From Roseomonas sp. OT10 (GTDB lineage: Bacteria > Pseudomonadota > Alphaproteobacteria > Acetobacterales > Acetobacteraceae), in NCBI RefSeq assembly GCF_020991085.1, contig NZ_CP087719.1, positions 1,756,001-1,820,000 of the forward strand: DNA of 64,000 nt, in the 5' to 3' direction. The notes beneath the pieces are model-generated. The model was given only the letters and a program-made list of their open reading frames with translations. It did not search any database and was not told where the DNA came from. The translations under genes and the position numbers were made by a program. This document shows positions 25,196 through 30,152 of the stretch, in pieces (the stretch's first letter is position 1; each line of letters starts with the position of its first letter).

Positions 25196-25221
25196 AACGT
25201 CGCTTCCATTCGGGCGGTTGC
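25196..25221 (-). promoter_or_regulatory. EcfG-like promoter for the DUF1328 gene
   Basis: Read on the minus strand: GCAAC, 17 bases, CGTTG. The canonical alphaproteobacterial EcfG promoter is GGAAC-N16/17-CGTT, so one base differs. The -10 part ends 33 bases before the ATG. The same variant occurs before csbD and the DUF883 gene. Confidence 0.6.
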
Positions 25222-25290
25222 CGCCGGTCCGGCAATCTGTTGCATACCGGTCGGATCGGCGTGGCGCCCGTGCACCACCTGGCGTCGCCG

Positions 25291-25512
25291 TCAGCCGCCG
25301 AGCCGGTGCTCCCAGTCCCGCAGGCGGCGCTCCGCCTCCTCCTCGCCGAAGCCGTAGCGCTCCCGGATGAGGGAGAGCAGGGCGGTCCGGTCACCCTTGA
25401 TGCCGGCGACCTCCTGCTCGGTCAGGTTGCCCCATTCCTCGCGCACTTTGCCGCTCATGCCGGACCAGTTGCCTTCGACCCGGCTCCAGTCCCCGTCCCC
25501 CTGCTGCGCCAT
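25291..25512 (-). CDS. CsbD family stress protein
   Basis: 73 residues: WSRVEGNWSGMSGKVREEWG and LTEQEVAGIKGDRTALLSLI are the conserved CsbD core; RERYGFGEEEAERRLRDWE follows. CsbD-like proteins are small, hydrophilic and highly induced by the general stress response in many bacteria, with unknown mechanism. A GCAAC-N17-CGTT element sits about 50 bases upstream of the start. Confidence 0.92.
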   Translation of the reverse strand: MAQQGDGDWSRVEGNWSGMSGKVREEWGNLTEQEVAGIKGDRTALLSLIRERYGFGEEEAERRLRDWEHRLGG

Positions 25513-25563
25513 CGCATTGCCCTTCCCGGTTGCGCCCGGGGGCGGCCGCCCCCGCCCGCCGGC

Positions 25564-25589
25564 AACGGAGGCCGGCAGGGCGGGGTTGC
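25564..25589 (-). promoter_or_regulatory. EcfG-like promoter for csbD
   Basis: Minus strand: GCAAC, 17 bases, CGTTG. The same one-base variant of the EcfG consensus as before the DUF1328 gene. It lies between the csbD start (25512) and the phyR stop (25616). Confidence 0.6.
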
Positions 25590-25615
25590 GTCGGCGGGCG
25601 CACCCGCCCCGCCGC

Positions 25616-26338
25616 TCAGTCGAGCCGGATGCCGCCGGAGACCGCCTGGTAGGTGGCGATGGCCAGGGCGATCGGCTCGAAGGGCTTGCTGATGATGAAG
25701 GCCGGCTCCAGCCGCTCCGCCGTCAGCAGCCGCTCCGGATAGGCGGTGACGAAGATGACGGGGATGCTCTGCTCGCGCAGGATCCGCTCCACCGCCGAGA
25801 TGCCGTCGCCGCCGGGGCCGAGGTTCACGTCCGCCAGGATGAGCCCGGGGCGCAGGCTGCGCGCCAGTTCCACCGCCTCGGACTCGCCGGAGGCCATGCC
25901 GACGACGCGGTGGCCGCAGCCCTCGACCAACTGGCGGATGTCCATGGCGATGATGGGCTCGTCCTCGATCACCAGCACCTCCGTGGCGGCGGTGGCCTTC
26001 AGCACGGAGCGGGCGGCCTCCAGCTCCCGCCGGGCGTCCTCGGCGGGCAGGCCCACCACCCGGGCGGCGTCGCCCAGCGTCAGATCCTCCAGCGCCGTCA
26101 GCAGCAGGAGCTGGCGCTGGCGGATCGTCATGGGGGAGTCCGCGTCGTCCCCGGCCGCGGCGACCTGCGCGGTCACTCCGGCGTAGAGGGCCAGATGGCC
26201 CGGCACCTGGGGCAGCCCCGCCTTCAGCGCCTCCGCCACCAGCCGGTCGCCGCGTTCCTGTCCGCCTGCCAGCGCCCTGGCATAGCGCCGCGCATAGGGG
26301 AGGGTACGCACCAGCTCCCCCTGCGTCACAGCGTTCAT
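25616..26338 (-). CDS. phyR: PhyR-type response regulator (anti-anti-sigma)
   Basis: 240 residues. The first ~115 mimic an ECF sigma factor (sigma2-like and sigma4-like helices, with LLLLTALEDLTLGDAARVVG), the rest is a receiver domain. Receiver residues: acidic Glu125/Asp126, phospho-acceptor Asp170 (LILADVNLG), Thr198 and Lys218 (IISKPFEP). When phosphorylated, PhyR sequesters NepR and frees EcfG. Divergent from the sigma gene at 26514, completing the general stress response module. Confidence 0.95.
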   Translation of the reverse strand: MNAVTQGELVRTLPYARRYARALAGGQERGDRLVAEALKAGLPQVPGHLALYAGVTAQVAAAGDDADSPMTIRQRQLLLLTALEDLTLGDAARVVGLPAEDARRELEAARSVLKATAATEVLVIEDEPIIAMDIRQLVEGCGHRVVGMASGESEAVELARSLRPGLILADVNLGPGGDGISAVERILREQSIPVIFVTAYPERLLTAERLEPAFIISKPFEPIALAIATYQAVSGGIRLD

Positions 26339-26513
26339 CGTGCTACGTCCTCCTGCGGCGCGGGCCGGAAGGCGCCGGGCCACCATGTTGAAGCCAAGTC
26401 AGAACGGCGTGCGACACGGCGGCTTCGCCCAGGTCGCGCGCCGGCCACCGGAACAGGGCCGGAGAGGGGCAGCCGAAGCAGGATGGCCGCCCTTGTCCCG
26501 GCGAGGAAGCCCA

Positions 26514-27014
26514 TTGGAACAGGACGAAGACTTCAGGGCCGGCCTGGCACGGCTCCTCCCGGATCTGCGTGCCTTCGGACGGTTCCTGTCCCGGGATGCC
26601 GCCGCCGCCGACGACCTCGTTCAGGAAGCGCTCCTTCGGGCACTGCGGGCGGAATCGCAATGGGAACCGGGAACAAGCTTGCGTGGCTGGGCCTTCCGCA
26701 TCCTGCGCAACGTCTTCTACGAGAGCCGGCGCCGCTTCGCGGTCGAGCGGCGGGTGCTGGAGGCCGTGGGGCAGGAGGAGAGCGAGGAGGCACGCCAGCA
26801 CGCCCGCATGGAGGTGGCCGGCCTCGATGCCGCGCTGGCAGTCCTGCCGGTGGAGCAGCGGGAGGCGCTGGTCCTCGTCGGGGCGCTCGGCTTTTCCTAC
26901 GAGGAGGGCGCGCGGGTCATCGGCGTGGCGGAGGGCACGCTGAAGGCGCGGGTCTCCCGGGCCCGGCGGGCCCTGGCCGAGCGCTTCGCACCGGAGAGTG
27001 ACCCGGTGGACTAG
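26514..27014 (+). CDS. ECF RNA polymerase sigma factor, EcfG-like (copy 1)
   Basis: 166 residues from TTG 26514, which has GAGGAAG 5 bases upstream and gives the usual ECF beginning (EDFRAGLARLLPDLRAFGRF). An ATG at 26385 would add 43 low-complexity residues. Region 2 is DAAAADDLVQEALLRALR and WEPGTSLRGWAFRILRNVFY; region 4 is LPVEQREALVLVGALGFSYEE and EGTLKARVSRAR. It is divergent from phyR and directly upstream of a second sigma gene. Confidence 0.88.
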   Translation: MEQDEDFRAGLARLLPDLRAFGRFLSRDAAAADDLVQEALLRALRAESQWEPGTSLRGWAFRILRNVFYESRRRFAVERRVLEAVGQEESEEARQHARMEVAGLDAALAVLPVEQREALVLVGALGFSYEEGARVIGVAEGTLKARVSRARRALAERFAPESDPVD

Positions 27015-27137
27015 ACATGCGATAATGGAATGTCTGATATGCGATATAAGGCGAGGGCCGCGGCAACGGTTTTTCGGGGTCGTTCATTGATCCCCCGAAA
27101 GCCGGAACCATCCGGCCCAGGCACAGGAGCCCGCCAC

Positions 27138-27785
27138 GTGACTCAGACGGCCCAGATCGATCGTCCCGCCACTGCCGAAGAGGGCTTCGACTTCCACAAG
27201 CTGCTGGCTTCCACCCTGCCGCGGCTGCGCGTCCAGGCGCTGGCGCTGACCCGCAACCGCGCCGACGCCGACGATCTGGTCCAGTCCGCCGTCACCTCCG
27301 CCCTGGCCGCGAAGGAGTCCTTCACCCCTGGCACCAATTTCGGCGCCTGGATGTTCCGCATCCTCCGCAACCGCTTCATCTCCGACATCCGCCGCCGCCG
27401 CGAGACGGTCGACCTGGACGACGTGCCGAGCGGGGCGTTTGCCCGCCCGGGGGCGCAGGAGGACAGCTTGGTGATGCGCGAGCTGCGCATCCACATGGCC
27501 CGGCTGCCCGAGGAGCAGCGCACGGCGCTGGTCATGGTGACCGTGCAGGGCATGTCCTACGAGGAAGTGGCCGAGGCGATGAACTGCGCGGTCGGCACCG
27601 CCAAGTGCCGCGTCTTCCGCGCCCGGCAGACCCTGCAGCGTTGGCTGATGGGCGAGGAGCGTAGCGGTGCGCGCAAGGCAGCCCGCGAGCGCAAGGAGGC
27701 TTCCGCCGCGGCCCGTTCTGCCCGTACGATGCGTGCCGCCGGCCGCGCCGGCGACGAGGGAGACCGGGCAACCCTTTCGGCTTGA
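27138..27785 (+). CDS. ecfG: ECF sigma factor EcfG (general stress response, copy 2)
   Basis: 215 residues from GTG 27138 (AGGAG 8 bases before). Region 2: RNRADADDLVQSAVTSALA, FGAWMFRILRNRFISDIRRR; region 4: LPEEQRTALVMVTVQGMSYEEVAEAMNCAVGTAKCRVFRAR. The C-terminus is an Ala/Arg/Lys-rich tail of about 45 residues, longer than typical. The nepR gene follows at once, so this copy is the likely NepR client. About half identical to copy 1 in the sigma regions by eye. Confidence 0.93.
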   Translation: MTQTAQIDRPATAEEGFDFHKLLASTLPRLRVQALALTRNRADADDLVQSAVTSALAAKESFTPGTNFGAWMFRILRNRFISDIRRRRETVDLDDVPSGAFARPGAQEDSLVMRELRIHMARLPEEQRTALVMVTVQGMSYEEVAEAMNCAVGTAKCRVFRARQTLQRWLMGEERSGARKAARERKEASAAARSARTMRAAGRAGDEGDRATLSA

Positions 27786-27817
27786 TGGACGGCAAACCAG
27801 ACAAGAGGGGACGTCCC

Positions 27818-27991
27818 ATGCCGGTCGAGGGCACGGGAGCGGGCGGGGGGCGCGCTTCAAAAAGCGCGCCCGATGCTGCTTTCAACCTTTGGCTCCAGCG
27901 CGGGCTCCACGCCATCTATGACGATGTGGCCCGCGAGCCCGTGCCCGAGGAACTGCTTCGACTGATCGAGCAGGATCGCAGCAAGTCATGA
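27818..27991 (+). CDS. nepR: NepR family anti-sigma factor
   Basis: 57 residues from ATG 27818 (AAGAGGGG 7 bases before). An ATG at 27785 that touches the sigma stop (TGATG) would add 11 residues. The core FNLWLQRGLHAIYDDVAREP with VPEELLRLIEQ is the NepR signature that binds EcfG and PhyR. Gene order ecfG-nepR-kinase and the ATGA overlap with the kinase start show tight coupling. Confidence 0.92.
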   Translation: MPVEGTGAGGGRASKSAPDAAFNLWLQRGLHAIYDDVAREPVPEELLRLIEQDRSKS

Positions 27992-29742
27992 AGCCAGCTG
28001 GCCTCGCGCAACGCGCGAGGCGGATGGCGAGGTCACTCGGTGGCATTCGCGGACGGATGATCGCGCTGCTGTTCGCGGCCGGTATCCCCGTTCTTGTGAT
28101 TGCGATCGGCAACGCGCTGCAAAGCCGGGACATCGCGTTGCGCGAAGGCATGCAGCGGTTGCTGTCCGCGCGTGAGGTCGCGACCACCCAGGTCGCGGGC
28201 GCGCTGGAAAACCTCGATATCGTCATGCGTACCCTGGCCCGGACCCAGCCCGTCCTCGGCCTAGACGGCGACGGTTGCGCCGAGATCCTGCGTCGCGTCC
28301 TCGACATGCAGCCCGGCCGCTACGGGAATCTCTGGGTCATCGACGTCGGCGGCACGCGCCGCTGCTCGGGCCTGCCGGGCGAGGTGCAGATCCCGCCTCC
28401 CGAATCGTTGCAGTGGCAACGGCCTCTCGTCGCGGGAGAGCTGGCCGTGGGTTTCTTCCTGACGGGCGGCGCCACGGGCCCGACCCTGCTGCCCTTCGCG
28501 GTGCCGCTGGACGCAACCCAGCTTCCGCGGCGTAGCCTGGGCGGCACGCTGATCGTCGAATCCCTGGCGCCGGCCGCATCGCGTCAGGCCGGCGGGGTCC
28601 AGGCCTGGCTGACCGATCGCCGCTCGACCATCATCTCCCTGGGCGGAACCCTGCCCGCCCGCCGCCCGGACCCCCGGAGCCTCGGCAAGGCGATCCGCGG
28701 GGAGGGCGTGGTGCAGGGGCAGGCGGTGAATGGCGAGGACATGGCCTACGCCGCCTCGGCCCTGGGGTCGGAACTGCACCTGGTGGTGGGGATGCCCTAC
28801 GCGCCGGTGCGGGAGGCAGCCTGGGCGGTCCTCCTGCAACGGCTCGCGGAGCTCGCGGCGTTCCTCGTCGTCTGCCTGGCGGCCATCATCATCGGGGCGG
28901 ACCTCGCCATGGTGCGTCCGCTGCGGTCGCTGGCCGAGCGGGTCCAGCGTTGGCGTTCGGGCGTGGTGTTCGAGCGCCCGCCCTCCACCACTGAGCCACG
29001 CGAGGTCATCGAGCTGGAGAAGGCCTTCGACCAGGTCGTCCGCGCCCTGGAGGCGCGGGAGGGCGAGCTTCGCACGGCGCTGGACCATAGCGACGCGCTG
29101 ATGGCCGAGATCCATCACCGGGTGAAGAACAACCTCCAGGTCGTCTCCTCCCTGCTGAACCTCCAGGGCAACCGCATCGCCGATCCGGCGGCGCAGAACG
29201 AGTTCCGCGCGGCACGCAACAGGGTGCGCGCGCTGGCCACGCTGCACCGGCACCTCTACCTGCAGCAATCCTTCGAATCGATCACGCTGCGTCCCTTCCT
29301 GGACGAGCTGGCGGCGCAGCAGTTCAGCTCCCAGGGGGAGGCGCCGGGCGAACGGCTGGCGCTGCGGATCGAGGCGGAGGATCTCGTCATCTCCACCGAC
29401 CAGGCCGTCTCCATCGCCCTTCTGCTGACGGAGACCGTGGGCAATGCCGTCGCCCATGCCTTCCCCGACGACCGCACCGGCACGGTCACGGTGGCGATGC
29501 GCCGCGAGGGCGCGGAGGCGATCCTGACCGTGACGGATGACGGCATCGGCCTGCCCGTGGCGACGCCCCCCACCTCGCTGGGGCTGGGACTGCAGCTGCT
29601 CGACGGCTTCGCGCGGCAACTGGGTGGCCGGCTCGCGCGCGGCCCGGGGCCGGGAACATCGTGGATCGTGCGCTTCCCATTGCGCGAACGCGCGGAGGCG
29701 CGGCACCCTGGCGCTTCCCCCCGCGCCACGAAGATCGCCTGA
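27988..29742 (+). CDS. HisKA_2 sensor histidine kinase (PhyK-like)
   Basis: 584 residues. A membrane helix at about 24-45, an extracytoplasmic sensor of ~240 residues and a second helix (LAAFLVVCLAAIIIGADLA) near 290-310, followed by a HAMP-like linker. The HisKA_2 box is MAEIHHRVKNNLQVVSSLL with the phospho-acceptor His near residue 376. The HATPase domain has ETVGNAVAHAFP, VTDDGIGLP and GLGLQLLDGFA. Position after nepR and family make it the probable kinase for PhyR; signal unknown. Confidence 0.93.
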   Translation: MKPAGLAQRARRMARSLGGIRGRMIALLFAAGIPVLVIAIGNALQSRDIALREGMQRLLSAREVATTQVAGALENLDIVMRTLARTQPVLGLDGDGCAEILRRVLDMQPGRYGNLWVIDVGGTRRCSGLPGEVQIPPPESLQWQRPLVAGELAVGFFLTGGATGPTLLPFAVPLDATQLPRRSLGGTLIVESLAPAASRQAGGVQAWLTDRRSTIISLGGTLPARRPDPRSLGKAIRGEGVVQGQAVNGEDMAYAASALGSELHLVVGMPYAPVREAAWAVLLQRLAELAAFLVVCLAAIIIGADLAMVRPLRSLAERVQRWRSGVVFERPPSTTEPREVIELEKAFDQVVRALEAREGELRTALDHSDALMAEIHHRVKNNLQVVSSLLNLQGNRIADPAAQNEFRAARNRVRALATLHRHLYLQQSFESITLRPFLDELAAQQFSSQGEAPGERLALRIEAEDLVISTDQAVSIALLLTETVGNAVAHAFPDDRTGTVTVAMRREGAEAILTVTDDGIGLPVATPPTSLGLGLQLLDGFARQLGGRLARGPGPGTSWIVRFPLRERAEARHPGASPRATKIA

Positions 29743-29811
29743 GACCGCGCCGCCCCGGACCGGATTCCTGGCGGGAATGCCACGGTCGGGTGCGCGGGAA
29801 GGCAGGCAGGA

Positions 29812-29836
29812 GCAACCGCGTGTCACAGGTCGCGTT
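29812..29836 (+). promoter_or_regulatory. EcfG-like promoter for the DUF883/YqjE-like pair
   Basis: GCAAC at 29812-29816, 16 bases, CGTTG from 29833. The -10 part ends 34 bases before the ATG at 29871. Third copy of the same one-base variant within 5 kb. Confidence 0.6.
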
Positions 29837-29870: not shown

Positions 29871-30152
29871 ATGTCCGGCCAGAGCGAGGCGCGTCAGTTC
29901 GTTTCAGACACCGCCGACGACGCCCGCGCGCAGATCGAGGAGCTGCGCCGCAAGGTAGAGTCTCTGCTGGCCGAGCGCTCGACGTCGCTCTCCCGCGCCG
30001 TCGACAAGGCGGAGGTCTATGCGGGCACCGTCGCTGACAAGGCGCAGCGCGGCTACGACGAGGTCCAGGACCGCGTCCGCGAGCGTCCGGGGTCCTCCCT
30101 CCTGATCGCAGCGGCCGTGGGATTCGTCCTCGGCCGCCTCCTGGGGCGCTGA
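29871..30152 (+). CDS. DUF883 (ElaB/YqjD-like) membrane-anchored protein
   Basis: 93 residues from ATG with GAGGAGAA upstream. A long amphipathic helical part (ADDARAQIEELRRKVESLLA) is followed by one C-terminal helix with small residues (SLLIAAAVGFVLGRLLGR). This is the ElaB/YqjD layout, proteins induced in stationary phase and reported to tether ribosomes to the membrane in E. coli. The next gene is YqjE-like, matching the yqjDE pairing. Confidence 0.88.
   Translation: MSGQSEARQFVSDTADDARAQIEELRRKVESLLAERSTSLSRAVDKAEVYAGTVADKAQRGYDEVQDRVRERPGSSLLIAAAVGFVLGRLLGR

Follow-up and report, generated by a model that had tools for sequence, protein, structure and literature searches.

A 64,000-nucleotide stretch of the Roseomonas sp. 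OT10 genome (contig NZ_CP087719.1, positions 1,756,001 to 1,820,000; hereafter the window) carries a complete PhyR/EcfA/EcfB/NepR/HisKA_2-kinase locus between elements of the form GCAAC-N16/17-CGTT. From sequence comparison we conclude with good confidence that these elements are PhyR-NepR-EcfG stress promoters whose -35 preference has moved in the Acetobacteraceae; a change in the recognition helix of the extracytoplasmic function (ECF) sigma factor EcfB is the proposed cause. EcfG promoters of the alphaproteobacterial general stress response usually follow the consensus GGAAC-N16/17-CGTT. The three sites named in a preliminary description of the window, upstream of the DUF1328, csbD and DUF883 genes and on both strands, were found again in the sequence and by script at exactly the positions first given, and all three read GCAACC...CGTTG as described. 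A fourth element, GCAAC-N17-CATT upstream of ecfB, was absent from that description. The first two -35 bases are GC, not GG, at all four window sites; three combine the AAC core and a 16/17 spacer with CGTT, and the fourth has CATT. A script search for GGAAC-N16/17-CGTT gave no match within the 64-kb window. The sites are very likely general stress response promoters with a family-typical -35 preference, a reading based on their -35/-10 layout, spacing, distance from genes and stress-type target genes, and on the retention of the boxes while the flanks drift.

Number and position of sites in the genome

The genome comprises 5.69 Mb in three contigs. GCAAC-N16/17-CGTT occurs at 46 sites compared with 39 for the reversed pattern, and GGAAC-N16/17-CGTT at 42 compared with 34; these raw counts are weakly informative, whereas the position of the sites relative to genes is informative. 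We counted a site as being in promoter position if it lay between genes and a gene on its own strand began 10-100 nt downstream. This position was occupied by 23 of the 45 distinct GCAAC sites with an N16/17 spacer, compared with 3 of 34 with N13/14 (Fisher p = 7.6e-5), and one of those three is the ecfB promoter itself. The enrichment upstream of starts on which the preliminary description had staked its proposal is present. Its suggested genome-wide comparison of GCAAC with GGAAC had a divided outcome, since the totals are nearly equal (46 and 42) and the two boxes separate only by promoter position (23 and nine sites). Other boxes were also found there (GAAAC, 5 of 14 sites; GTAAC, 2 of 4), and by the position counts of the four boxes GCAAC is the one most used in this genome, with the others retained. 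The genome has a second such cluster, spanning no more than 2.8 kb at C1:1095070-1097802, with two GAAAC sites, two GGAAC sites and a single GCAAC site; the site preceding an aldo/keto reductase gene is among them.

Chance matches in G+C-rich intergenic DNA would agree with a raw count that barely exceeds the reversed-pattern control, and we regard them as scarcely credible. Given 46 GCAAC sites in the genome, 0.038 would be expected in 4.6 kb and three were seen (Poisson probability of at least three, 9e-6); together with the position enrichment, this clustering speaks against chance, which is already contradicted by conservation in congeners (see below). The observation of three sites is confirmed as lying beyond chance. 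We also rejected as very improbable the idea that the sites are inverted repeats (CAAC...GTTG) for a dimeric regulator rather than promoters. The three first-found sites all end in CGTTG and hence read GCAAC...GTTG, but the trailing G is not general, following CGTT in only 10 of the 23 promoter-position GCAAC sites of the genome, and both the N16/17 spacing and the distance to genes are as in ECF promoters.

The gene set downstream of GCAAC fits the suggestion of a general stress regulon: by Pfam, the 23 targets include DUF1328, two CsbD, DUF883, two PRC-barrel, BON-LysM and topoisomerase IB proteins, as well as a peptide methionine sulfoxide reductase (MsrA), a zinc alcohol dehydrogenase, an aldo/keto reductase, a diacylglycerol-kinase-domain protein, a BrkB-family protein, a zinc peptidase and DUF3072. 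Of the 20 targets outside the window, three lack any match in Pfam; several would not count as classical stress genes (a GTPase of EF-Tu type, a GFO/IDH/MocA oxidoreductase and a PHB-esterase-like protein). The GGAAC sites precede genes for a pyridoxamine-phosphate-oxidase-like protein and a thiamine-diphosphate enzyme, a transposase-like gene and four genes whose products matched nothing in Pfam, in addition to the CsbD gene mentioned next.

At the level of this genome, some observations count against a moved preference. GGAAC was not lost, as 9 of its 42 sites stand in promoter position where 1.0 would be expected under uniform spread (p = 5e-7); measured against its own N13/14 spacer control, for which 31 of 43 sites were classified, the excess is 9 of 42 compared with 2 of 31 (p = 0.10). 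One of the nine lies upstream of another CsbD gene. There is also the caveat that genes around the 88 GCAAC and GGAAC sites were called by a home-made codon-usage script.

The -35 box in congeners and across the family

In both congeners compared (G102 and G003), GCAAC-N16-CGTT is found upstream of the DUF1328 gene and GCAACC...CGTT upstream of DUF883. At csbD, GCAACC-N16-CGTT is present upstream in G003; no csbD gene was found at the corresponding place in G102. Alignments of the regions upstream of DUF1328 and ecfB showed both boxes kept and the spacer and flanks diverged. Among 20 relatives, the exact pattern occurred in 4 of 9 DUF1328, 2 of 4 csbD and 4 of 6 DUF883 regions, always with GCAAC and never with GGAAC.

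We then compared the surroundings of phyR, up to 10 kb on each side, in 63 Acetobacteraceae loci (70 fetched, seven duplicates dropped, the unclassified alphaproteobacterial record L211 counted with the family) and 41 loci outside the family, two Steroidobacteraceae included. The locus of the window was left out of these counts, as it was from the helix-class and ecfB-upstream counts below. In promoter position with CGTT, GGAAC, GCAAC, GAAAC and GTAAC numbered 10, 46, 16 and 1 in the family and 156, 10, 3 and 0 outside it. The G-to-C change in the -35 box is lineage-wide in the Acetobacteraceae. The preliminary description was right about C at the second position of the window sites, and a new or exclusive box is not what they represent: GCAAC is known from Sphingopyxis, and GGAAC, GAAAC and GTAAC are used as well.

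Two sets of loci stood out on inspection. L211, a metagenome-assembled genome, has the tandem ECF layout, an intermediate EcfB helix (GTVKSRICRAR), three GGAAC boxes and GCAAC upstream of ecfB. The Steroidobacteraceae loci (L223 and L225) have PhyR, an EcfG-like sigma gene and GGAAC promoters, a set that possibly arrived by transfer from Alphaproteobacteria.

With wrong spacers (N12, 13, 20 and 21 with CGTT), 14 of 41 GCAAC sites in the family were in promoter position, compared with 46 of 79 at N16/17 (p = 0.02). Twelve of the 14 are GCAAC-N13-CGTTCATT, which is the GCAAC-N17-CATT element itself, and one further site, GCAAC-N13-CGTTCGTT, is likewise the ecfB element. We considered whether the 14 of 41 weaken the case and dismissed this because 13 of the 14 are that element; limited to N20/21, the control gave 1 of 10. 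In the window, CGTT stands immediately 5' of the CATT of the ecfB promoter (27081-27088), and the same arrangement is seen in 12 family loci (e.g., L099, L190 and L199).

The window's ecfB-upstream element aligns with GCAAC...CATT in G102 and with GTAAC...CATT in G003 and Roseomonas sp. KE2513. Two family and six outside loci in which no ECF gene was found were dropped, leaving 61 and 35. We searched 260 nt upstream of EcfB and 480 nt upstream of canonical EcfG, where nepR lies in between; some of the ecfB-upstream matches lie no more than 10 nt from the called start of ecfB or overlap with it. G-N-AAC-N16/17-C[AG]TT was present upstream of ecfB in 49 of the 61 family loci, in 45 of them as GCAAC, and the 53 matches divide into GCAAC-CATT (38), GCAAC-CGTT (9), GTAAC-CATT (4) and GGAAC-CGTT (2). 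Outside the family, the EcfG gene was preceded by a match in 30 of 35 loci, with 31 matches in all: GGAAC-CGTT (27), GCAAC-CGTT (2), GAAAC-CGTT (1) and GGAAC-CATT (1). Because these promoters are orthologous, the loci are not independent. When GCAAC was paired with CATT in the family, 31 of 47 sites at N16/17 were in promoter position, compared with 2 of 11 at N13/14 and 0 of 9 at N20/21. GCAAC-N17-CATT is likely an autoregulatory promoter of the ecfB-nepR-kinase genes. In the accessible part of a study of Sphingopyxis granuli, nepR2-ecfG1 has a putative GGAAC-N16-CGTT promoter, read there as a sign of autoregulation that has been reported elsewhere too (PMC7083833). By analogy, the window element is likely its counterpart.

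Boxes at other csbD genes were counted as well. Among 69 upstream regions from family genomes (70 loci, one not found by tblastn; the 40 beyond 30 given loci were hand-picked from a longer list and cover both helix types), boxes with CGTT were GCAAC 27, GGAAC 10 and GAAAC 4. In 17 csbD regions outside the family, boxes with [CT]GTT within 100 nt were GGAAC 6, GCAAC 1 and GAAAC 1, and 10 regions had no box.

A simpler account would have no change of specificity at all, with the sigma factor reading G-N-AAC loosely and GCAAC common through drift or base composition. It fits the place of GCAAC among the two commonest boxes of Sphingopyxis (PMC7083833), the presence of GAAAC and GTAAC in promoter position in the genome, and the 72% G+C of the window. 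We think it rather unlikely, in view of ten outside loci with G+C of at least 0.69 (L219, L221, L222, L229, L231, L233, L234, L254, L256 and L258) that had 25 GGAAC, two GCAAC and one GAAAC. Moreover, family promoters of the sigma gene almost always have GCAAC, despite the equal G+C content of GGAAC, and the helix changes described below are clade-specific.

Sigma factors and the recognition helix

In 62 aligned rows of EcfB, residue 155 is Ala in 87%, residue 157 is Ser in 66% and Cys in 34%, and residue 160 is Phe in 97%. The 35 rows of canonical EcfG have Ile or Val at 155, Ser at 157 in 100%, and Ser, Asn, Ala or Gly at 160. EcfB aligns without gaps to sigma-E in the sigma-E/-35 structure 2h27. 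Counting along the Escherichia coli sequence, we take C157 of EcfB to be S172 of sigma-E, and F160 to be F175. The crystal structure shows S172 in contact with the base at G-34, the second -35 position, and F175 with T'-33/T'-32 (PMC6713349).

Around phyR, GGAAC, GCAAC, GAAAC and GTAAC numbered 0, 32, 14 and 1 in the 20 C157 loci, 7, 13, 2 and 0 in the 40 S157-F160 loci, and 153, 8, 3 and 0 in the 35 canonical loci. The share of GGAAC differed at both steps (Fisher p = 1.6e-4 and 1.8e-10), values that overstate independence because C157 is a single clade with one origin in the tree (SH-aLRT 97). The proposal of a variant -35 box recognised by the local sigma factors gains support from the position statistics, the conservation in congeners, the family-wide shift and these changes in the region-4 helix.

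Other results weigh against this reading. Very few independent events underlie the link between residue and box. The serine-157 clade, too, has mostly GCAAC upstream of ecfB, so Cys157 is not the cause of GCAAC use and at most lowers the use of GGAAC. The window genome is itself C157, yet has nine GGAAC sites in promoter position. Many homologous upstream regions have no exact match (e.g., only 4 of 9 at DUF1328 do). Topoisomerase IB gave a mixed result: 31 genomes matched, 17 of 30 upstream regions had no box, and the 13 with one were GGAAC 5, GCAAC 5 and GAAAC 3, mostly with GGTT as the -10. Two genomes from one genus of the C157 clade (L386 and L388) have GGAACC-N17-CGTT ahead of topoisomerase IB, and GGAAC is therefore not fully excluded in that clade.

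We also weighed whether EcfA reads GCAAC and EcfB something else. The ecfA gene adjoins phyR, and EcfA does not have the serine found at the sigma-E S172 position: in 44 rows, 43 of them from relatives, Ala occupies in 98% the site where canonical EcfG has its -35-contacting Ser. In a quick sequence tree with long branches and no outgroup, EcfB and the 35 canonical EcfG sequences fell on one side and 43 of the 44 EcfA sequences on the other. We judge a GCAAC-reading EcfA improbable, however, as ecfB itself is preceded by a box in 49 of 61 family loci, and two genomes (G028 and G115) in which no EcfA match was found besides the EcfB positions, except for one weak match in G028, keep GCAACC-N16-CGTT at csbD. 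EcfB could therefore be enough. Against this last point, G115 is only 90% complete, and G157, a congener of G028 and G115, has an EcfA match.

With EcfB as the reader of GCAAC, the preferred -35 box of the family would have changed from GGAAC to GCAAC (also GAAAC), and upstream of the sigma gene GGAAC-N16-CGTT would have given way mostly to GCAAC-N17-CATT; the putative cause would be the replacement of the helix GT(I/V)KSR(V/I)(S/N/A/G)RAR by mainly GTAK(S/C)RVFRAR in EcfB. Tentatively, and with more doubt than confidence, we suggest an order of events in which an early change at residues 155 and 160 moved GGAAC to GCAAC and the sigma factor's own promoter to GCAAC-N17-CATT, and a later Ser157Cys, at the residue in contact with the second base, turned GGAAC into a poor site on the Roseomonas side, so that canonical EcfG and EcfB would be partly orthogonal.

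The locus, related systems and significance

The genes and elements of the locus are given in Table 1. PhyR has the domains PF22029 and PF00072 expected of the PhyR component of a PhyR-NepR-EcfG system; its start is that of the codon-usage gene caller. The nepR gene, directly downstream of ecfB and so next to a sigma gene, was skipped by that caller, and its coordinates are those of the longest open reading frame (ORF), with a putative TTG start. The kinase, an HWE/HisKA_2 enzyme encoded at the locus, also matches PF07536 (25 bits, cut-off 22.8), and its top NCBIfam match is PhyK at 206.8 bits, below that model's cut-off of 750; its coordinates run from the ORF start, and the codon-usage caller begins the gene at 28057. 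The A155, C157 and F160 codons of EcfB lie within 27600-27617. The CsbD-like protein matches NCBIfam PRK10428 (E 2e-17), under the cut-off of the model, and the 135-amino-acid protein labelled YqjE-like had no match in Pfam or NCBIfam.

Table 1. Predicted promoter elements and genes at the PhyR locus, in window positions; distances are from the end of the site to the start codon
Feature	Position	Strand	Remarks
GCAAC-N17-CGTT, predicted promoter element of the DUF1328 (YtjA-like) gene	25196..25221	-	32 nt from start codon
GCAAC-N17-CGTT, predicted promoter element of csbD	25564..25589	-	51 nt from start codon
GCAAC-N17-CATT, fourth element, upstream of ecfB	27063..27088	+	49 nt before ecfB
GCAAC-N16-CGTT, predicted promoter element of the DUF883/YqjE-like pair	29812..29836	+	34 nt from start codon
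DUF1328 membrane protein, 53 amino acids	25002..25163	-	PF07043, E 5e-16
CsbD-like protein, 73 amino acids	25291..25512	-	PF05532, E 4.5e-8, under curated cut-off
PhyR (sigma-like domain and receiver)	25616..26338	-	PRK09191, 253 bits, cut-off 240
EcfA, first of two tandem ECF sigma factors	26514..27014	+	PF04542 and PF08281; helix GTLKARVSRAR
EcfB, NepR-linked ECF sigma factor	27138..27785	+	PF04542 and PF08281; recognition helix GTAKCRVFRAR
NepR anti-sigma factor	27782..27991	+	PF18557, 27.7 bits, cut-off 25.7
PhyK-like HisKA_2/HWE histidine kinase	27988..29742	+	PF07568, E 2.6e-24, 85.5 bits
DUF883/ElaB-like protein	29871..30152	+	PF19029, E 1e-4, under cut-off; longer ORF from 29661 scanned
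Protein named YqjE-like in the preliminary description, 135 amino acids	30157..30564	+	Follows DUF883 in both congeners

In the proposed scheme, stress would lead the kinase to phosphorylate PhyR, phosphorylated PhyR would remove NepR from EcfB, and EcfB with RNA polymerase would transcribe the genes with GCAAC promoters and its own gene cluster.

The elements share with EcfG-type promoters the AAC core, the CGTT -10, the 16/17 spacer, a distance of less than 100 nt from the start and the type of target gene, and the sigma genes are linked to nepR and phyR as in EcfG-type systems. They differ in that the second -35 base is C (or A) far oftener than G, that N17 and mostly CATT are found at the sigma gene, and that most family loci have two tandem ECF genes with nepR downstream of both.

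Precedents come from Sphingopyxis and Sphingomonas. The S. granuli study names GGAAC and GCAAC as the two -35 boxes found most often in the general stress response and reports in vitro transcription from gsp, a GCAAC promoter; CATT occurs as a -10 variant for EcfG1/EcfG2. GGAAC is the clear consensus there, whereas GCAAC is the majority box here (PMC7083833). Table 1 of a study of Sphingomonas melonis likewise has GCAACC...CGTT sites among GGAAC ones, and topoisomerase IB, PRC-barrel and Zn-dependent alcohol dehydrogenase genes, three types shared with the GCAAC targets of this genome, are among those regulated by EcfG, but the consensus in that study is GGAAC-N17-20-GTT (PMC6599016). Region 4 of sigma-E and SigW on -35 DNA has the same helix and layout (PMC6713349); the difference lies in the Cys of EcfB at the S172 position in the Roseomonas-side clade and in the second base of the box, here mostly C or A. 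The consensus is GAAC-N16,17-C/GGTT in a Methylobacterium paper and GGAAC-N16-CGTT in a Rhizobium etli paper. A Gluconobacter RNA-seq paper reports transcript starts, and no ECF motif was found in its accessible part. Among the literature matches listed, which cover few subscription journals, we found no paper on an Acetobacteraceae EcfG promoter; the 2021 ECF re-classification may predict one. The GCAAC box was already known; the family-wide shift and its sigma-factor correlate appear to be new.

For regulon prediction in this genome, the choice of box matters: GGAAC-N16/17-CGTT, the consensus commonly used to predict such regulons in Alphaproteobacteria, finds nine promoter-position sites and misses the 23 with GCAAC. 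The Acetobacteraceae provide a natural example of joint change in a regulator and its promoters, and the residues to be tested are few. Knowledge of the GCAAC box would aid the prediction of stress regulons in Roseomonas and the acetic acid bacteria.

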